Assembly: GCA_012269745.1 (NCBI GenBank)
Contig: JAAXJR010000050.1
Span: forward strand, 1 to 64,000
DNA length: 64,000 nucleotides
From: Flavobacteriales bacterium
GTDB taxonomy: Bacteria; Bacteroidota; Bacteroidia; Flavobacteriales; Schleiferiaceae
Direction: 5' to 3'
Position numbers and translations under genes: made by a program
Notes under the pieces: model-generated
The model's input: only the letters and a program-made list of their open reading frames with translations
The model's database searches: none
What the model was told of the DNA's origin: nothing
Part shown: positions 9,146-34,712 of the stretch, in pieces
How the letters are laid out: each line of letters begins with the position of its first letter
Numbering within the stretch: the first letter of the stretch is position 1

Positions 9146-10651
9146 ATGCCTAAGTCCAAAATGTCGCAAAAGACCATAGCCGTTGTAGGCGCAGGAATTG
9201 CAGGTTTAGCTGCCTCTATTCGCTTAGCTAGAGCGGGTTATAATGTGTCCTTGTTTGAGAAAAATGCCTACACAGGCGGGAAGATGACCGTATATGAACA
9301 AGACGGTTACCGGTTTGATGCAGGTCCTTCGTTGTTTACACTGCCTCATCTCGTGGATGATTTGTTCAAATTGTGCGGGATGAATCCGCGAGATCATTTC
9401 AATTACATTCAACACGAAACTGCTTGCAAATATTGGTGGCAAAATGGAAAGAAATTGGTCTTAACTGCCCAGGAAGAGGAAAACTTGAGGGCCATTGCAG
9501 AGGAGTTTGGTGGTGAGGCAGCCGCATCAGCACGTAAGTATTTTGAAGATGCCAAGGAGAAATACGAGCTCACGGAGCCTTATTTTCTGCAGCAAAGCTT
9601 ACACCGGGCGAAGACATTTTTGAACCGTCGCGTACTTAAAGTCATCAGGGCAATTCCAAGATTAGGATTGTTCAATACTCTCAATGAGGAAAATGAGAAA
9701 TACTTCAACAGCCCTGAGTTAGTTCAACTTTTCAATAGATACGCAACATACAACGGTTCTTCCCCGTATCTGACTCCAGGCATTATGCAAATGATTAATC
9801 ATCTTGAACACGGCTTGGGAACTTACCTGCCCAAGGGAGGGATGCATGAGATAGCTGCAAGCTTGACTAGACTCGCGGAAAAGTTAGGTGTTAATATTCA
9901 GCTCAACAGCCCTGTAGAAAAAGTGCACGTACAAGGCAAGAAATGTGAAGGGCTCCAGGTGAAGGGTGAGACGTTGAACTTTGATGCTGTGGTACTCAAC
10001 GCTGATGTTCATTATGCTTACGAGCATCTTATAAACATCGGAGTAAAACGACCAAAGAAGACGTTGGCTCAGGAGCCAAGTACCAGTGCCCTTATTTTCT
10101 ATTGGGGAATAGATAGAAGTTTTGAGCAGCTTGATTTGCATAACATTTTCTTCTCCAAGGATTATCGTAAGGAGTTTGATCAAATAAGAAGCTCAGAAGA
10201 TTTTTGGCTTGATCCTACCATCTATGTCAATATTTCAAGTAAGGTCGAACAGGAAGATGCACCAGAAGGCTGTGAAAATTGGTTCGTTATGATCAATGTC
10301 CCTCCAAATTCCACGCAAGATTGGAAGGCAATTACACTAAAAGCTAGGAAGACGATAGTTGCGCGTATGTCACGAGTATTAGGTGTTGATATTGAATCAC
10401 ACATTGCCACGGAGCGAGTTCTAGATCCTGTGATGATTGAAACCTATACTTCAAGTGCAGGAGGTGCCCTATATGGAACAAGCTCGAATGATCGAATGGC
10501 TGCATTCCTGCGCCATCCGAATAAGAAATTGGGCGGCTATAAAGGATTATATTTCTGTGGAGGTAGTGCACACCCAGGAGGTGGTGTCCCTTTGTGCTTA
10601 TTGAGTGGTAAATTAGCGGCTAATTGGTGCATTGAAGATTTAAATGGATAG
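9146..10651 (+). CDS. crtD: Carotenoid 3,4-desaturase CrtD / CrtI-type phytoene desaturase family
   Basis: A 501-residue FAD-dependent carotenoid desaturase. The Rossmann dinucleotide motif VVGAGIAGLAASIRLARAG lies at about 13-31, followed by the GGKM and FDAGPSLFTLP substrate-pocket strands. The C-terminal family signature GLYFCGGSAHPGGGVPLCLLSGKLAA is complete. CrtI and CrtD are hard to separate by eye. CrtD is preferred because the next gene is the carotenoid 1,2-hydratase CruF, and the two together make the 1-hydroxy-3,4-didehydro end group of myxol- or saproxanthin-type pigments. It overlaps cruF by 8 nt. ATG 9161 is an alternative start that removes five residues. Confidence 0.85.
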   Translation: MPKSKMSQKTIAVVGAGIAGLAASIRLARAGYNVSLFEKNAYTGGKMTVYEQDGYRFDAGPSLFTLPHLVDDLFKLCGMNPRDHFNYIQHETACKYWWQNGKKLVLTAQEEENLRAIAEEFGGEAAASARKYFEDAKEKYELTEPYFLQQSLHRAKTFLNRRVLKVIRAIPRLGLFNTLNEENEKYFNSPELVQLFNRYATYNGSSPYLTPGIMQMINHLEHGLGTYLPKGGMHEIAASLTRLAEKLGVNIQLNSPVEKVHVQGKKCEGLQVKGETLNFDAVVLNADVHYAYEHLINIGVKRPKKTLAQEPSTSALIFYWGIDRSFEQLDLHNIFFSKDYRKEFDQIRSSEDFWLDPTIYVNISSKVEQEDAPEGCENWFVMINVPPNSTQDWKAITLKARKTIVARMSRVLGVDIESHIATERVLDPVMIETYTSSAGGALYGTSSNDRMAAFLRHPNKKLGGYKGLYFCGGSAHPGGGVPLCLLSGKLAANWCIEDLNG

Positions 10652-11276
10652 AGCGCAACTACAACATCATGCTAAGGCCTACGGCCATTGGATATTACTT
10701 ATTCTACAGGTAGTTGGGATTTTTCTCTTGGGCAGCCAGTGGGGGCAGCAGTTTGTATTTCTCACTCCCGTAAATCTGACCATAGTTGCAGTCCTTTTTT
10801 ACCTCGCCTCCGAACCGACTAAATCCGAGTTCTTTTATTTCTTACCTGCGCTCATGGGTTGGTTGATTGAACTAGCGGGAACCAACACAGGATTTCCGTT
10901 TGGCGAATACACCTACAGCGGAATCTTAGGCCCTGGTTTGTTCGGTACACCATTCATGATTGGTATCCTATGGTGGGTTTTAATTCGTTCTGCTTATGAT
11001 ATCTGTGGCCAATTCATTTCTTCAGATTTCTTCAAGAGCATTATCACCGGTTTAGCGATGGTAGGTCTGGATATTCTCATAGAACCAGTGGCTATTGGGC
11101 TGAACTTCTGGCAATGGGAAACACCTGAGGTGCCATTAGAAAACTATGTTGCCTGGTTCATGTGCAGTGCTGTTTTTGCGCGCGTCACAGCCGGCGGAGA
11201 TACTAAGAATCCACTGAGCTACTGGATCTGGGGTACGATGCTTTTGTTTTTCGGAGCGCTGAACTTCGTGTATTAA
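10644..11276 (+). CDS. cruF: Carotenoid 1,2-hydratase CruF (DUF422 family)
   Basis: A 210-residue polytopic membrane protein with about six helices. Family motifs are TGFPFGEYTY at 82-91, LGPGLFGTPF following it, EPVA at 147-150, FWQW at 155-158 and NYVAWF at 167-172. CruF-type proteins add water across the psi end group of lycopene or gamma-carotene to give a 1-hydroxy group, upstream of 3,4-desaturation by CrtD. Its ATG lies inside the end of crtD, so the two are co-translated. No crtB, crtY, crtZ or crtW is in the window, so those steps must be encoded elsewhere. Confidence 0.88.
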   Translation: MDRAQLQHHAKAYGHWILLILQVVGIFLLGSQWGQQFVFLTPVNLTIVAVLFYLASEPTKSEFFYFLPALMGWLIELAGTNTGFPFGEYTYSGILGPGLFGTPFMIGILWWVLIRSAYDICGQFISSDFFKSIITGLAMVGLDILIEPVAIGLNFWQWETPEVPLENYVAWFMCSAVFARVTAGGDTKNPLSYWIWGTMLLFFGALNFVY

Positions 11277-11331: not shown

Positions 11332-13014
11332 CTAGTTTTCTTTCAATCGTTTAATCTCTAATTCGAGTTCTTCGATTTTACGTTCAATATCTTCTTCCAA
11401 ACTCTCTTCGAGCTCTTCGATCTGTTCTTCTATTTCCTCTGTATTGTAGTATTCTACATCTTCACAATCCAAGCAAACTAGGCCACGGCGTTCCATTGCC
11501 CAGGTATGACCAATCATTTGTCCGTCCCACATGTTATGAACGTTTTCAATATCATAGATGAGGTTTTCGATACTTGGGTCCAAGAAGATTTCAGTGCCCA
11601 CTGGTAAGAAGAGTGTAGCTCTCAATTCTTGACCGCGATACAACGCTTCTTTAGGTACTGTGAAGTACTCATTCAAGCTAAGGACTTCTCCTGTTTGTTC
11701 GATGGGGTAGCTAAACTGCCCCGCGCGATTACGGGCATCAGAATTGCTTTTTCCCCGCGCGCGGTGCTTCATCACTAACGTCGCTGTAGAGTCAAAGGAT
11801 TTTTTGATAGTCAAGCTGACATTTTCAATGCGCAACTTATCATCGTCCACCTCGAATAAGAATCCCTCAGGGCTTTCCAATAGATCTGCGCGGAGATCAA
11901 AAGTATTTCCTTGAAGTTCGACCGTACTCATTTCGGTTGCGCCAACCTTGAATGTATTTGCTACTTGGCCACCAGCATAAAGGAGGAAGGCCAGACCCAC
12001 AAAGAAGCTAATTCCACCGACTACATTTAGTATTCTACCGTTCGCTAAAGGCTTTCCTGCAGCTCTTGCAATCAAGGCGATTAGTCCAAGGATAGGGAAG
12101 AGCAAGGTAAGTAAGGTGCCAACGCGCATCAGTGTCAGATCTACACCGCTGCCTAAAACCGCTTCCGCAGCATTGAATCCTATTACAGCGCCGTCGATGG
12201 TGATGAAATCGAAACCGCCAATATTCCAGGTGCTAGCTATAACACCAAACAGCGCAATGAAAAGTACGAAGCCAATGACACTACCAATAATGATTAGGAT
12301 AACACTGAAGAACTTGAAAATGAATCCGAAAATCGCTTCTAATACATTGATAATGAAATTACCTACACGGCTGAAGAAGTTCCCGATTTGGTTTTGCGTC
12401 CCTTTGCTTTCCTCGCGAAATCGACCGAAGCGCTCCTTGACGCCATCGAGCTCCTCCTTCACGCTCTTCTCAATATTGCTGAGGTTTACAGGCTCTCCAC
12501 GCATCTGTAATTTCTGTGCAGTGGTCTTTGCTTCAGGGATGGCCGCCCAGAGAATTACATAAGTGATAAAGCCAATTCCAGTGAAAAACAAGAGAATCAA
12601 GAACAGAATACGAATCCAGACAACGTCAGTTCCGAAATAGGCCGCAATACCGCTGGCAACGCCCCCGATGAACTTCTCATCAGGATTCCGAAACAGGCGC
12701 TTTTTAGCCTTGTTACTCTTTGTTTGCTTTGAAGAATACTCTTCAGCATCGTCTTCAAATTCCTCCGGAGATCCAAGGGTATCAGTAACAAAAGTTACAT
12801 CATCAATGCTAATTACTTCGCGTTTGTATTCTTCCAATCTCATGGAGAATAGCTCCGCAATACGTGCTTCGATATCAGCAATTACTTCCGCACCGCCCTC
12901 TTGGGATTCAAGTGCATTTTTGACCTGGGTCAAATATTTTTTAAAGGCATCGTAGGCAGCCTCGTCGAGGTGGAATATGATGCCGGCTAGATTAATGTTA
13001 ATGGTCTTATTCAT
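11332..13014 (-). CDS. PspC domain membrane protein
   Basis: A 560-residue protein. The N-terminal 85 residues form the conserved Bacteroidota cap (MNKTININLAGIIFHLDE, an Asp/Glu-rich helix). A PspC domain follows at about 105-165 (LFRNPDEKFIGGVASGIAAYFG plus a membrane helix), then three or four more membrane helices, a beta-rich extracytoplasmic domain and a highly acidic C-terminal coiled coil (EEIEEQIEELEESLEED). PspC proteins take part in envelope-stress responses. The partner here is the PadR regulator whose gene overlaps this one by 4 nt, a pairing common in Bacteroidota and likely to control expression of this operon. Confidence 0.88.
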   Translation of the reverse strand: MNKTININLAGIIFHLDEAAYDAFKKYLTQVKNALESQEGGAEVIADIEARIAELFSMRLEEYKREVISIDDVTFVTDTLGSPEEFEDDAEEYSSKQTKSNKAKKRLFRNPDEKFIGGVASGIAAYFGTDVVWIRILFLILLFFTGIGFITYVILWAAIPEAKTTAQKLQMRGEPVNLSNIEKSVKEELDGVKERFGRFREESKGTQNQIGNFFSRVGNFIINVLEAIFGFIFKFFSVILIIIGSVIGFVLFIALFGVIASTWNIGGFDFITIDGAVIGFNAAEAVLGSGVDLTLMRVGTLLTLLFPILGLIALIARAAGKPLANGRILNVVGGISFFVGLAFLLYAGGQVANTFKVGATEMSTVELQGNTFDLRADLLESPEGFLFEVDDDKLRIENVSLTIKKSFDSTATLVMKHRARGKSNSDARNRAGQFSYPIEQTGEVLSLNEYFTVPKEALYRGQELRATLFLPVGTEIFLDPSIENLIYDIENVHNMWDGQMIGHTWAMERRGLVCLDCEDVEYYNTEEIEEQIEELEESLEEDIERKIEELELEIKRLKEN

Positions 13015-13349
13015 GATTCAGTGGGGGTAGTAGTTATAATTTTTACAGCTTCTTGTAATTCTTCCCAAGTCATCTTTAATTCTGCTTGGAACGAACGTCC
13101 AGTATCGGAAAGTGAATAATACTTTCTCGGCGGGCCAGATGTGCTTTCTTCCCAACGGTATTCAAGCAATCCGGCATTCTTCAGCCTCGTAAGCAGGGGA
13201 TATAAAGTACCCTCAACCACGATGAGTTTGGCTTCTTTGAGCTTCGCAATGATGTCGGAAGCATAGGCATCTGATGAATCTAGGATCCCAAGTATGCAAT
13301 ACTCCAGGATGCCCTTTCTCATCTGAGCCTTAGTATTATCAATCTTCAT
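13011..13349 (-). CDS. PadR family transcriptional regulator
   Basis: A 112-residue protein consisting of the PadR winged-helix domain. Hallmarks are KGILEYCILGIL in helix 1, the recognition-helix region VVEGTLYPLLTRLKNAGLL, and wing residues GPPRKYYSLSDTGR. It lacks the long C-terminal dimerisation arm and so is a subfamily-2 (short) PadR. It sits between the lipoprotein gene (11-nt overlap) and the PspC gene (4-nt overlap). The operon promoter at 13825-13856 is overlaid by two inverted repeats, consistent with autorepression. Confidence 0.92.
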   Translation of the reverse strand: MKIDNTKAQMRKGILEYCILGILDSSDAYASDIIAKLKEAKLIVVEGTLYPLLTRLKNAGLLEYRWEESTSGPPRKYYSLSDTGRSFQAELKMTWEELQEAVKIITTTPTES

Positions 13350-13800
13350 GCAGCTTCTTGTTTAAAGTGAAATCACCATATACCGTGAGTAGCATGGTCA
13401 TGTTGTCCTCTTTGATTAGAAAATGGGCTTCGTCAAAGTGCGTTCGGCTACCTCTTGTGTAGATGTAGTTTTTTTCACCGTCGTTGTCCAATTCTACCTT
13501 GTTGTAGCCCGTGCGCTTAAGGAATCGCTCCCAGTCCTTAGTCACTTCTTCAAGGTAACGGTCGTCGCTAACCTTTAGCCACTGGATTCTTTTGATCTCT
13601 CCATTAAGAGTGCGCTCTAAATCTCCTGAAGCGGTGAAGTCGATGTCTAGAGGTAGAGCACTCAATAGGGAACCGCCAAAGCTAAATCCACTCACATAGG
13701 GCTTCGGGTCGTACTTCTCGTACAATTCATCTGCCTTGCCTTTCGGTTGTGAACACGCCATAAAAGGCAGTAAAACAGCGATTAAAATTAATTGTCTCAT
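13339..13800 (-). CDS. Small lipoprotein, DUF4252-like
   Basis: A protein of about 153 residues beginning MRQLILIAVLLPFMACSQ, a lipoprotein signal with the cysteine after FMA. A frame opening 27 bases upstream exists, but ATG 13800 puts the signal at the N terminus. The pattern resembles DUF4252 proteins: an amphipathic first half, then VSDDRYLEEV and a final LIKEDNMTMLLTVYGDF strand. That match is by eye. It is first in the lipoprotein-padR-pspC operon, so it should be co-regulated by PadR and may act in the envelope-stress response. Confidence 0.75.
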   Translation of the reverse strand: MRQLILIAVLLPFMACSQPKGKADELYEKYDPKPYVSGFSFGGSLLSALPLDIDFTASGDLERTLNGEIKRIQWLKVSDDRYLEEVTKDWERFLKRTGYNKVELDNDGEKNYIYTRGSRTHFDEAHFLIKEDNMTMLLTVYGDFTLNKKLHED

Positions 13801-13821
13801 AATTAGGGGTGTTATTGTTTG

Positions 13822-13839
13822 ATACAAAGATATATGTAT
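13822..13839. promoter_or_regulatory. Inverted repeat over the -7 element, candidate PadR operator 1
   Basis: ATACA, 8 bases, TGTAT: a perfect 5-bp dyad with two-turn geometry typical of PadR dimers. The predicted -7 element lies inside it, so occupancy would block RNA polymerase. Assignment to the PadR protein encoded in the same operon is inferred. Confidence 0.5.
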
Positions 13840-13856
13840 TCTTAGGTACTATGCAA
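13825..13856 (-). promoter_or_regulatory. Bacteroidota-type promoter of the lipoprotein-padR-pspC operon
   Basis: Read on the minus strand, the -7 element TATCTTTG (13825-13832) matches TAnnTTTG exactly. A TTG for the -33 element lies at 13854-13856, 21 bases upstream. The position just before the start at 13800 gives a short leader. Both elements are covered by the inverted repeats at 13822-13839 and 13844-13868. Confidence 0.6.
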
Positions 13857-13868
13857 TACAAAGTACCT
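13844..13868. promoter_or_regulatory. Inverted repeat over the -33 element, candidate PadR operator 2
   Basis: AGGTACT, 11 bases, AGTACCT: a perfect 7-bp dyad just upstream of the first inverted repeat. It contains the predicted -33 TTG in its spacer. Two dyads on one promoter suggest cooperative or two-step repression. Confidence 0.5.
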
Positions 13869-14002
13869 TAAAATTTGTGAAGAGAGTGTGAAATAGCTTG
13901 TTTCGATTCAATTATGAGACGAAATGCTCAATTCCGGACATTTTACGATTCGTATTGCCATAAATCCATCGCATAACGAGAATCTTGGCGCGGCTTTCGG
14001 TA

Positions 14003-14605
14003 ATGCCGGTCTTAGATTTTTATAGAAATGTTAAAACCCTATTAGTTATGACACTTTTTATTTTATCCATTGTCCTACAATTAGTTGCCTTGTATTTCTT
14101 GTTGGATTTTCTCACTGGAATCGTTCATTGGTGGATGGACCGTTATGGAAGGGAGGATATGCCTATTGTCGGTCGAGCAATTATTGAAATCAATACCTGG
14201 CACCACGAGAACCCGAGAAAAATGACTACGCGTAGCTATTGGTATCTATGTAAAACCGGTTGGGTAGGAGTGGGATGCATGTGGCTTGTAGTCGTGCTGC
14301 TTACAGGCCATCTCCCATGGCAATGGCTCTTTATCGGAGTTTTAGGTGCTAATGCGAACATTGTTCATCAATGGGCCCATAAGTTTCCCAATGAGAAGCC
14401 TAAGGTTATTAATTGGTTGCAGAAGCACCGCATTCTTCAAAGACCACACGATCATGCGCAGCACCATACAAGACCCGAAACTAGAGCCTACTGTACCTAT
14501 ACGCCCTGGTTGAATCCTATTTTAGACCGCATCGGTTTTTGGTTCGCCATAGAGAATTTTCTATCTCTTTTCAAGATATATACGACCGACCGGATTGATG
14601 CTTAA
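14003..14605 (+). CDS. CarF/PEDS1-type lipid desaturase (TMEM189 family)
   Basis: A membrane protein of about 200 residues with the histidine framework of plasmanylethanolamine desaturases: LDFLTGIVHWWMD (H42), WHHENPRKMTTR (H67, H68), NIVHQWAHKFP (H122, H126) and PHDHAQHHTRPETRAYC (H149, H151, H154, H155), then WLNPILDRIGFW and a Glu. Human TMEM189 and Myxococcus CarF share this block order. They introduce the vinyl-ether double bond of plasmalogens using O2 and a di-iron site. A TTG-initiated frame begins at 13985; ATG 14003 or ATG 14048 (directly before the first helix) are more likely. Whether this organism makes ether lipids is unknown, so another lipid substrate is possible. Confidence 0.82.
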   Translation: MPVLDFYRNVKTLLVMTLFILSIVLQLVALYFLLDFLTGIVHWWMDRYGREDMPIVGRAIIEINTWHHENPRKMTTRSYWYLCKTGWVGVGCMWLVVVLLTGHLPWQWLFIGVLGANANIVHQWAHKFPNEKPKVINWLQKHRILQRPHDHAQHHTRPETRAYCTYTPWLNPILDRIGFWFAIENFLSLFKIYTTDRIDA

Positions 14606-14606
14606 C

Positions 14607-14634
14607 AAAAAGCCGCGCACAGCGCGGCTTTTTT
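14607..14634. terminator. Rho-independent terminator
   Basis: AAAAAGCCGCGC and GCGCGGCTTTTT arms enclose a short loop. It lies between the convergent CarF-like and methyltransferase genes, and its A and T tracts make it suitable for both directions. Confidence 0.88.
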
Positions 14635-14641
14635 ATTGCAT

Positions 14642-15445
14642 TCAGATCTTCTTTTCTGCTTTGATCGCATAGACCAACGGGAACAACCCTTCTTTTCCCT
14701 TGATCTGATAGCGGCCTGAATCTTTTTCAGTGGCCTCAAAGATTTCATAGGGACTCCAATCGTATTCATTAAAGTAGATCATAGAGCGCTCCGGATGGTC
14801 TACAATTGGTTTTACTAGGTCGCTGATACTGTGATTCCAGGTGTAATTCACCATCTTTTTGGCCTCTGGAGAGGCATAGGAGCCTTCGCGCTCCTCCTTA
14901 ATTACGCCAGTATTGAAGTACGGATATTTAACCTCCTTAAAATCTTCATCTAGGATCCACAGCACTGGATGAAAGTCTACAAGGAGTAATTTCCCGCCAG
15001 GTTTTAAGTAAGAAAACGCTGCATCCATCCATGCCTTAGCATCTGGGTGCCAACCTACCACACCATAAGAGGCAAAAACAAAATCGAAAGAATTTGCCAT
15101 GCCAGGATCAATATCAAGCACGTCTCTTTGGATAAAACTGGCTGCTACCTCACAGGCCTCGGCAAGTTTCCGGGCTTGAATTACGGCCTCGTTACTAAAG
15201 TCTAAACCAGTAATGCTCTTTGCTCCAAGTGTGTTAAGGCTAATAGTATCTTGACCGAAGTGGCATTGCAGATGTAAGACATCTTTTTCTTTAACATCAT
15301 GCAACAAATCCAATTCGATCGCATTTAGTGCCATTTGATGCTTTACGAACGAATCATTGTCATAAAATTCGCTCGAGGGATGCAAGGCAGCCCAATGGTC
15401 CCAAAGTGCCTTGTTGGCCTCTTTGTATGCTTTGATTTCTTTCAC
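14642..15445 (-). CDS. Class I SAM-dependent methyltransferase
   Basis: A 267-residue Rossmann-fold methyltransferase. The SAM-binding motif I region is KDVLHLQCHFGQDTISL near residues 55-70. Motif II is ITGLDFSNEAV, the acidic loop is FIQRDVLDID, the motif IV region is FDFVFASYGVVGWHPD, and the post-motif is YLKPGGKLLLVDFHPV. The rest binds an unidentified small molecule; the broad family includes methyltransferases of metabolites, lipids and metalloids. It directly follows the secreted protein gene at 15445 with a one-base overlap, so they are probably co-transcribed, but no functional link is evident. Confidence 0.88.
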   Translation of the reverse strand: MKEIKAYKEANKALWDHWAALHPSSEFYDNDSFVKHQMALNAIELDLLHDVKEKDVLHLQCHFGQDTISLNTLGAKSITGLDFSNEAVIQARKLAEACEVAASFIQRDVLDIDPGMANSFDFVFASYGVVGWHPDAKAWMDAAFSYLKPGGKLLLVDFHPVLWILDEDFKEVKYPYFNTGVIKEEREGSYASPEAKKMVNYTWNHSISDLVKPIVDHPERSMIYFNEYDWSPYEIFEATEKDSGRYQIKGKEGLFPLVYAIKAEKKI

Positions 15446-31255: not shown

Positions 31256-31942
31256 ATGAATAAGCAACGCATACTCTTAGTAGAAGACGATACCAACTTT
31301 GGTAATCTTCTTCGTGATACACTTTCTTTTAATGACTTTGAAGTAGATCTCGAAAGAGACGGAGTTCAAGGACTTCGAGCCTACAAGCAGGGCGAATACG
31401 ACCTTTGTATATTCGATATCATGATGCCCAAAAAAGATGGTTTGACCTTAGCTACGGAGGTAAAAGCTATTGATAATGGTCAGCCATTAATCTTTTTAAC
31501 AGCCAAAGGGCAGAAGGAAGATATCATTGCTGGTTATAGCGCTGGTGCAGATGATTACCTTGTTAAGCCTTTCGATACGGACGTTTTGCTTTACAAGATT
31601 CAAGCGATTATCGGAAGGAATCTAGCAGATGTTGAAGAAGAACCGGATGAAATTCAGATTGGAGACTTGGTTTTTAAACCGAAGATTCGTCAACTACTCT
31701 ATAAGGATGAAGTAACAAGGTTAAGTCCCAAGGAATGTGATTTATTAAAACTATTGGCAGGCCATAAGAATCAGCTGTTGCCAAGGTCTAAAGCCCTGTT
31801 GAAAATCTGGAAAGAAGACAATTATTTTACGGGACGATCCATGGATGTATACGTTGCGAAGCTTCGTAAATATTTGAAGGTTGATGACAACCTACGCATC
31901 GAAAATGTGCACGGCGAAGGCTTTAGATTAGTGCAAGATTAG
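31256..31942 (+). CDS. OmpR/RprY-type response regulator
   Basis: A 228-residue regulator starting at ATG 31256 (a frame opening at 31238 would run into the kinase gene). The receiver domain has acidic pocket EDD at 10-12, phospho-acceptor D54 in [12 protein letters not shown], and K104 in YLVKPFDTD. The C-terminal winged helix (about 128-226) has the recognition features [18 protein letters not shown] and [13 protein letters not shown]. It pairs with the kinase directly upstream. The last 4 bases are shared with the convergent photolyase-like gene. Confidence 0.93.
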
Positions 31943-33396
31943 GACCTCCTGGGGCCAGGATTCACGTGTTTTCCGAGAATTCTCCGTGCCTCTTGCTTTG
32001 TTTTTTTTTCTTTTCGTTTTGAATATAAGGCATCACTTGCGCGCTTTCTATTCTTAGACAAATCCACAACGGGCTCGAGAGGGTAGGATCCGGTATTGTA
32101 GCCTTGCATGGCCAATTCCATTGGTGGTATTTTCCAAGGTTCATGGATATAAGGTGCAGGTATTTGAAAAAGTTCTGGCACCCATTGCTTGATGAATTTA
32201 CCCTTGGGATCGTGATCCTGACTCTGCTTGATGGGGTTGTAGATCCTAATGGTATTCACACCCGTGTAGCCGCTTTGCATTTGGAATTGGGCATAGTGAA
32301 TTCCCGGTTCAAAGTCCGTAAACAAAGAGGCTAAATAATCAGCACCCGGCTTCCAGGGCAACCACAGATATTGGCTGTAAAAACTGACGACCATAGCACG
32401 CATTCTAAAGTTTAAATACCCGGTTGCCGTCAAGCAACGCATGCATGCATCCACTAGTGGGACGCCCGTCTTTCCTTCCTTCCATGCATCGAATAGGTCT
32501 TGGTTCCATTCTTTACTCTGGTCAATATCCGTATATGCTCGATTAATGGGTAAAAACTCATATTCCCACTCGCTCTCAAACTTTTGAATGAAGTGGGCTT
32601 GCCACCGAAGTCGGTCCGCAAAAGCCCTGATATTACGCTTGGATCCCGGAATGTCTGCATGCTCCATGATTTGGACAAGTTGACGCACACTAATATTGCC
32701 CCAAGCCAAGTGTGGTGATATTCGACTGCATCCTTGTCGCGATTCTTGTGGCTTAGATATGCTATAAGCGTAGCGGGCGATACGTTTAGTTAGAAAGCTC
32801 TTTATAATGTTGTGTGCCCTGCGCTCACCGCCTTTTTGAAAAAAGGGATGTTCTTCAAACTCATTTTGATATTCCGGGATATTTAATTCTTGAGTATACG
32901 CACTGGAAGCAATCTTTTTTAAGTCTGCTTGAATCAGCGGTTGAGCAGCATTGTGATGCCATTTGCTCATCCAGTCTCTGCGGTTTCGAAGACCGCGTCG
33001 CACACCATTTGCATCTGACTCTAGCCACGGGATTTTCTGTGAGTTAAGGAATTTCTTGATTCTTAGATCGCGGTCGAAAGTGTGTTTGATACCAGTCTCT
33101 TTATGACTTAGAACTCTTACTACCTCAAAATTTGAGCAGATATGCTTGAAGAAATCGATGGCTTCGCATTTGAAGAAATACACCGTTTTCTGATCTAGCT
33201 GTAGATTGAGATCGTATACGGAGTCTGTAATAAATCGAACATGACGTTCGTCGTATTGAATTTGAGCAAAAAGTGAGGGTTCATAGAGAGTAAAGTAGAG
33301 TGTAGGAACATTGAGCTCCGTGCTCTGAAACACTGGTAGATGATCAAACCAGCGTAGATCCCGTTTGAACCACACTAATTGAATCTTCTCTCTCAC
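31939..33396 (-). CDS. Divergent cryptochrome/photolyase family protein
   Basis: A 485-residue protein with the N-terminal photolyase antenna domain ([15 protein letters not shown]) and the C-terminal FAD-binding helical domain ([49 protein letters not shown]). Several positions that bind the CPD lesion or form the electron-transfer Trp triad in E. coli photolyase look replaced: Asn341 by Phe330, Trp382 by Phe371, Trp384 by Met373 (aligned by eye). It may repair another lesion or act as a light sensor. The start is GTG overlapping the upstream TAG by one base. It is last of the SDR-flavin reductase-photolyase operon. Confidence 0.85.
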
Positions 33397-34022
33397 TAGA
33401 GGCCGTATTTCAAAGTGCTTGGGTAGGGAATATGCTTGTTGTCCGATGCAATACCGGTGTACTGCTGCAATCCTATTGCTAGAGTAGGACTTTGTTTAAA
33501 CAATACCCTCCCTTGTTCACAGACTTGTATATCATCACCCAGGGCAATATTTTGGATTCTTCCAACGGTATAAACGCACCCGTTGTTCAAGGTGAATTCT
33601 TCAATGAATTCTAACTCTATGGCATAGAGAAATGCTGTGGGAAGTGGATGCGTCCAATCCTGGTGTTCTTTAAGGCTTTCTCCAACTATCTCTAATTCAA
33701 ATATTCCCTCAGGCGCATTCATACTTACTTCATGAACTGTGGCCGATTTTGTAAAAGGCATACATACAAGGCTTATTCGACCTTGGTTTCTATAGTTAGA
33801 AAGCGTGTGCCTTTTACCATTATCCGGACGAAACAAAATGCTCATTTGAGCTGGATTCGCACCTACGTGGGTGATGTTTGAAAGGGTAGCGGCATTGTAC
33901 CTGTCCCGGTCATCCGCGGTGATCCCAATAAAAGCAGTTCGTATACCCGAGAGGCTGTTGATCAACGAGGTTCGGTATCGTTTTTCGAATCCCTCGATAT
34001 CCGAGGCGGTAATAGTTTTCAT
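33396..34022 (-). CDS. Flavin reductase-like FMN-binding split-barrel protein
   Basis: A 208-residue protein that fits the flavin_reduct split barrel: [43 protein letters not shown], and [20 protein letters not shown]. Family members bind FMN and reduce it, or use it, with NAD(P)H. It lies 3 bases after the SDR gene and overlaps the photolyase-like gene by one base, so the three proteins should be made together. A role in supplying reduced flavin for the photolyase-like FAD protein is an inference from context. Confidence 0.75.
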
Positions 34023-34025
34023 TCT

Positions 34026-34712
34026 TTATAGTACGCTTTGACCGCCATCAATGTGAACAATTTGACCGGTCATCCAAGAGGCTTTATCGCTCAATAAAAA
34101 GGCTGTCATTTCTGCAATATCACCGGCCTCTCCAACGCGTTTCATCGGATTGTTTTCGCCAAGCGCAGCCTTTTTCTCTGGTGTGCTCAAAAGTTTGCTT
34201 GCAAGTGGGGTATCTGTTAATGAAGGTGCAATACAGTTGATTCTAGCCTTGGGTGCCCATTCTGAGGCAATTGCTCTAGTCAACCCCTCAATGGCTCCTT
34301 TTGACGCACTTACAGTGGCATGGAAAGGCATTCCTCTTTGAACTGCCACTGTAGAATACAAAACCACCGAGGGAGTACTCTCTTTGTGAAAGTTTTTATA
34401 GGCTGCCTGCAGCGCTTTCACAGCACCCATGACTTGAAGTTGAAAATCAGCTTCAAAGACTTCAGGCTTTAATCCTCTGAATGGTTTCAGATTGATAGAT
34501 CCAACACTGTATACTAGGCCATCAATATTCTCTGGCATCTTATCGTCCCATTCGTCTTCGAGAACATCAAATTCTTCCCATTCAATGGTATGTGCGGGGC
34601 CTTCATAAGGAGTTCTGCTAAAGACAGTGACCTGGTGACCTTCTGCCGCCAATAGCTCTGCTGTTTCTTTTCCGATTCCTTTGCTTCCGCCAATAATTAC
34701 GTAATTCTTCAT
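34026..34712 (-). CDS. SDR family protein lacking the catalytic tyrosine
   Basis: A 228-residue short-chain dehydrogenase fold. The cofactor loop GGSKGIGKE is at 8-16 and the NNAG position reads SVGS (69-72). The catalytic Ser120 and Lys138 are present, but the Tyr of YxxxK is Val134 (VSASK). The C-terminal GQIVHIDGG is intact. Nucleotide binding is therefore expected while classical carbonyl reduction is doubtful. It is first in the operon with the flavin reductase-like and photolyase-like genes and diverges from the ammonia-lyase gene across about 107 bases. Confidence 0.85.
   Translation of the reverse strand: MKNYVIIGGSKGIGKETAELLAAEGHQVTVFSRTPYEGPAHTIEWEEFDVLEDEWDDKMPENIDGLVYSVGSINLKPFRGLKPEVFEADFQLQVMGAVKALQAAYKNFHKESTPSVVLYSTVAVQRGMPFHATVSASKGAIEGLTRAIASEWAPKARINCIAPSLTDTPLASKLLSTPEKKAALGENNPMKRVGEAGDIAEMTAFLLSDKASWMTGQIVHIDGGQSVL

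Follow-up and report, generated by a model that had tools for sequence, protein, structure and literature searches.

The window, by which we mean the whole 64,000-nucleotide stretch of DNA that was analysed, carries a gene whose product is, judged by its sequence, a real, rare and divergent bacterial member of the Lipid_desat family, and this protein would very probably act as a di-iron lipid oxidase. With somewhat less assurance, we read it as a short membrane-bound desaturase, FAD4-like but divergent, that would use O2 and a di-iron site to act on the acyl chains of lipids, and its role would probably be the tuning of membrane lipid rather than plasmalogen synthesis. Membership of the CarF/PEDS1 plasmalogen desaturases is not supported by the features that were compared: the ninth His, a conserved Phe, the score on the CarF model and the presence of precursor genes.

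The gene occupies an uninterrupted open reading frame (14003–14605, forward strand, 200 residues) that matches Pfam PF10520 (Lipid_desat) at 119.4 bits against a cut-off of 26.4 (E = 2.3e-34, 165 of the 175 profile positions), a match far beyond chance and the sole PF10520 match in a profile search of the genome. The frame and the profile match thus establish that the gene called in the initial annotation is real, but the start at ATG 14003 probably does not hold, because most relatives begin at the equivalent of ATG 14051 and the upstream ATG adds 16 residues that they mostly lack; the true start is therefore probably ATG 14051, giving a protein of 184 residues. The first His lies only 25–41 residues from the start, as against 95 in mouse PEDS1. 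The short N-terminus has room for one helix before it, and by hydropathy one N-terminal helix of the four-helix CarF/PEDS1 topology is likely missing. The AlphaFold model of the protein is too weak to add evidence (pLDDT 66); the PDB held no usable relative by sequence and no match by fold to this weak model. The best match in a viral fold search, a Harvfovirus “lipid desaturase domain-containing protein” (E = 0.09), is likewise too weak for use, and a search for virus-encoded relatives of this particular protein gave none.

What we take to be the human PEDS1 sequence, which fits 11 of 11 published residue positions, served as a yardstick only. The conclusions on individual residues rest on the published mouse numbering (PMC8960569), in which H96, D100, F118, H121, H122, H131, H187, H191, H215, H218 and H219 have as their equivalents, in the same order, H42, D46, N64, H67, H68, R77, H122, H126, H151, H154 and H155 of the window protein (Table 1). 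All eight metal-ligand His and the Asp of PEDS1, CarF and FAD4 are therefore present. These eight His are common to the three enzymes, whereas a ninth (mouse H131, CarF H113) is restricted to PEDS1 and CarF (PMC7149458, PMC8960569, PMC9131029), and it is at this ninth position that Arg is found, together with Asn at the Phe118 position, in 18 of the 18 Bacteroidota relatives examined (17 from named genomes plus the distant copy L019 of genome G436, at 39% identity). After the HH pair, 34 residues follow without any His, the next one lying 35 residues on and being non-conserved, so the absence of the ninth is not an alignment artefact. The initial annotation had all His blocks of human TMEM189 and Myxococcus CarF in the same order and spacing; this is right for the eight His, their order and the spacing of the first block (25 residues), but not for the ninth, nor for the stretch between mouse H122 and H187, which is shorter by 11 (54 versus 65), or that between H191 and H215, which is longer by 1 (25 versus 24).

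Table 1. Features of the Lipid_desat gene, its active-site positions and its surroundings (coordinates are those of the window)
Feature	Position	Strand	Basis and remarks
crtD–cruF carotenoid pair	9146..11276	+	Profile matches; separable from the Lipid_desat gene
PspC–PadR–DUF4252 block between cruF and Lipid_desat	11332..13827	-	Profile matches, synteny
Conserved 16-bp inverted repeat ATTCTTAGGTACTATG / CAAAGTACCTTAAAAT between divergent genes	13838..13874	.	Genus-wide conservation
Lipid_desat coding sequence, probable true extent	14051..14605	+	184 aa, ATG 14051; ORFs of relatives and their upstream stops
H42...D46, first iron-ligand His and essential Asp (mouse H96/D100)	14126..14140	+	Sequence, published numbering (PMC8960569); invariant in the relatives' alignment A1
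N64 T W H67 H68: retains the HH pair (mouse H121/H122) but has N64 in place of the PEDS1-important Phe (mouse F118)	14192..14206	+	Alignment, PMC8960569
R77 at the ninth-His position (mouse H131, CarF H113)	14231..14233	+	Alignment, PMC9131029
H122xxxH126 (mouse H187/H191)	14366..14380	+	Sequence, alignment
H151xxH154H155 (mouse H215/H218/H219)	14453..14467	+	Sequence, alignment
Strong hairpin, U tracts on each strand; bidirectional terminator shared by Lipid_desat and the methyltransferase	14607..14634	.	Fold -18.7 / -19.2 kcal/mol, z -4.9 / -3.9
Class-I SAM methyltransferase, convergent with Lipid_desat	14642..15445	-	Profile matches, which reach the class-I SAM level

CarF and human PEDS1 lacking the ninth His failed in the Myxococcus light assay, homologues naturally without it (those tested came from plants and Alphaproteobacteria) could not replace CarF, and in plants Arg is usual at this position (PMC9131029). 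Because the window protein has Arg there as plants do, these findings support a FAD4-like reading, and desaturation of an acyl chain is somewhat favoured over vinyl-ether chemistry. At a di-iron site built by the eight His and one Asp, the enzyme would use O2 and an electron donor of the ferredoxin or cytochrome type to remove hydrogens close to the head-group end of an esterified acyl chain in a membrane lipid, leaving a double bond. Plant FAD4, with peroxiredoxin Q as its partner, acts in this way at carbon 3 of the sn-2 chain of phosphatidylglycerol.

The surroundings of the gene are conserved across the genus, in the order TerC - ORF - crtD - cruF - PspC - PadR - DUF4252 - Lipid_desat - methyltransferase - CPDreg - ABC-F. 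Judged from the sequence, Lipid_desat is a stand-alone transcription unit, and the inverted repeat upstream would probably be the operator/promoter, of PadR-operator type, of the divergent DUF4252-PadR-PspC operon, likely reflecting PadR autoregulation. The crtD gene (NF042421, 620 bits) and the CruF-type protein beside it do lie close by, at 2.7 kb where about 3 kb had been given, and a photolyase-type gene is in the window as well (photolyase/cryptochrome, 31939–33396), adjoined on one strand by flavin-reductase-like and SDR genes (31939–34712). The link to carotenoids drawn from this proximity is not supported, because three opposite-strand genes intervene and because either partner can be absent from the locus alone. 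In L025 and L027 crtD is absent (2584–2659) while cruF and the desaturase stay; in G288 (L130:9352–10833) the whole PspC-PadR-DUF4252-Lipid_desat-methyltransferase block is cleanly absent, yet crtD-cruF are still there; about 60 bp separate cruF from CPDreg, and the genome has no PspC elsewhere. A further locus, L024, keeps the desaturase with only a fragment of PspC and without PadR, DUF4252 or the methyltransferase. Since each of these exceptions keeps one gene without another, no neighbour is an obligate partner, and since the whole neighbourhood is conserved, proximity to crtD-cruF is weak evidence; a tie of the Lipid_desat gene to carotenoid control is not supported. The absence of crtD with cruF kept in L025 and L027 predicts an altered carotenoid end product.

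The alternative that fares best, tentative as it is, keeps the di-iron lipid oxidase but gives it another substrate or outcome, so that it would hydroxylate or desaturate either a carotenoid end group or a lipid specific to Bacteroidota, such as a sulfonolipid, an amino-acid lipid or a hydroxy fatty acid. It accords with a residue signature unlike both PEDS1 and FAD4, with the ordinary FA_desaturase genes already present in these genomes, which make a separate role plausible, and with a weak secondary similarity to the FA_hydroxylase profile, although at 21 bits the latter is below its cut-off and the Lipid_desat match is far stronger. No lipid-specific neighbours were found in the genus or beside the distant homologues L019 and L037, and the desaturase is retained where crtD is missing; both speak against this reading. 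A slightly more doubtful proposal is a third activity within the CarF/FAD4 superfamily, in which a genus-specific enzyme of marine Bacteroidota with the signature N-x-x-H-H ... R would modify a Bacteroidota-specific membrane lipid; were it true, abundant ocean bacteria might possibly contain an unsuspected enol-ether or delta-3-unsaturated lipid.

Rather improbable is a true plasmanyl desaturase, which would form the 1'-vinyl ether of plasmalogens from an alkyl-ether phospholipid obtained by an unrecognised route or by environmental uptake, and which may help to signal singlet oxygen to carotenoid genes. The shared superfamily, the retained eight His and Asp and the crtD-cruF pair 2.7 kb away are compatible with it, and PEDS chemistry is conceivable even where the ninth His and Phe118 are lacking, because mouse H131A and F118A retain about 7% and 6% of activity, respectively, while Asp100 is essential (PMC8960569). 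Against it stand the clade-wide replacement of both residues, the failure of homologues without the ninth His to replace CarF, the separability of crtD and the Lipid_desat gene, and a score of 69 bits on the CarF equivalog model NF045946, whose cut-off is 500. The precursor pathway is a further difficulty. Twelve genomes (those of the genus itself plus G436) were searched with the PF02913, NAD_binding_4 and PF09989 profiles. No AGPS was found, as the apparent matches to PF02913 (FAD-oxidase_C) that were examined proved to be YdiJ-type FAD and Fe-S dehydrogenases and were rejected; in the window's genome the YdiJ-type gene is one gene split across two contigs. The best NAD_binding_4 matches, apparent FAR candidates, were rejected as well, since they scan as epimerase-type (sugar-epimerase) or thioester-reductase-like, and a PlsA-type DUF2229 protein (PF09989) was found in 0 of the 12 genomes, while four control genomes matched. 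With no AGPS, FAR-type or PlsA-type protein recognised, neither the known aerobic nor the known anaerobic ether-lipid route is visible within this search, which was the check that the initial annotation had itself suggested. Its assignment to CarF/PEDS1 is thus sound at the level of the CarF/PEDS1/FAD4 superfamily and is not supported at that of a plasmalogen desaturase. A set of eight His is not enough to recognise such an enzyme, and genome annotations should therefore check the ninth His and Phe118.

The host belongs to a marine Schleiferiaceae/Cryomorphaceae genus of Flavobacteriales, a placement based on named relatives whose gene order agrees. The Lipid_desat gene is present in 9 of the 11 sampled genomes of this genus at 66–78% identity and in a kept position, and this conservation argues that it is functional. 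Outside the genus it was found in none of about 285 other genomes of the order, and one other genome among 395 in the phylum has a match over the cut-off, with none in 298 further genomes of that genome's order; a lake Flavobacteriales MAG carries a relative at 44% identity (L037). Such a patchy distribution suggests acquisition by transfer. As to the insertion site, the outgroup methyltransferase homologues are not syntenic. That the gene is a non-catalytic or decaying relic is hardly credible: its absence from a few genus members would fit, but synteny is maintained, no frame damage is seen, and the metal-ligand His and Asp are invariant in all Bacteroidota relatives aligned, down to 38–44% identity. 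In a published survey, as summarised in PMC9131029, the bacterial homologues of CarF were chiefly myxobacterial, and a few came from Leptospira and Alphaproteobacteria. A copy with a fixed syntenic position in a single marine genus of Flavobacteriales widens this known range.

Several other Lipid_desat proteins came to light. An uncultured 595-kb phage (LR756511.1; L039:2968–3426) encodes an unannotated one of 152 residues, in which the ninth His of PEDS1 is kept, as is the Phe (-3 relative to HH). At 90 bits on the CarF model it scores best among the non-CarF proteins tested, and it is a candidate phage-borne vinyl-ether lipid desaturase. In Erythrobacter phage vB_EliS-L02 (L038:2337–2873) a Lipid_desat gene annotated as “hypothetical protein” lies between the phoH and portal genes, and copies 74% identical to it occur in four IMG/VR viral contigs (L143–L146); in L146, Glu takes the place expected for the essential Asp. 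It is possible that this type is a phage lipid-modifying gene. A plasmid of Legionella lytica (L040:1806–2543) carries a distant member at 22–25% identity, with His at the ninth position and annotated as a fatty acid desaturase.

Overall, the protein is likely to share the same di-iron chemistry on lipids with the characterised members of the superfamily. With Myxococcus xanthus CarF and animal PEDS1 (TMEM189), the plasmanylethanolamine desaturases, it has in common PF10520, the eight His, the essential Asp and the order of the motifs; it departs from them in its Arg and Asn, in the little room left for a second N-terminal helix, in its length (184–200 residues versus 281 in CarF), in falling far under the CarF equivalog cut-off, and in a genome where no AGPS or PlsA gene was found. 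Plant FAD4, the delta-3-trans desaturase of phosphatidylglycerol, likewise shares PF10520, the eight His and the Asp, and also the Arg. In the published FAD4/PEDS1 alignment (PMC8960569) the FAD4 proteins have a conserved Phe at the Phe118 position; the window protein has Asn there, so it is not a canonical FAD4 either, and its host is a non-photosynthetic bacterium. The Lipid_desat proteins of Alphaproteobacteria, likened here by published description, are also bacterial and also without the ninth His (PMC9131029). The Erythrobacter phage protein, the sole alphaproteobacterium-linked sequence compared, is 29–30% identical and has Asn and Ser at the Phe118 and ninth-His positions. Set among these enzymes, the divergent active site offers a means to learn which residues choose between vinyl-ether and acyl desaturation.
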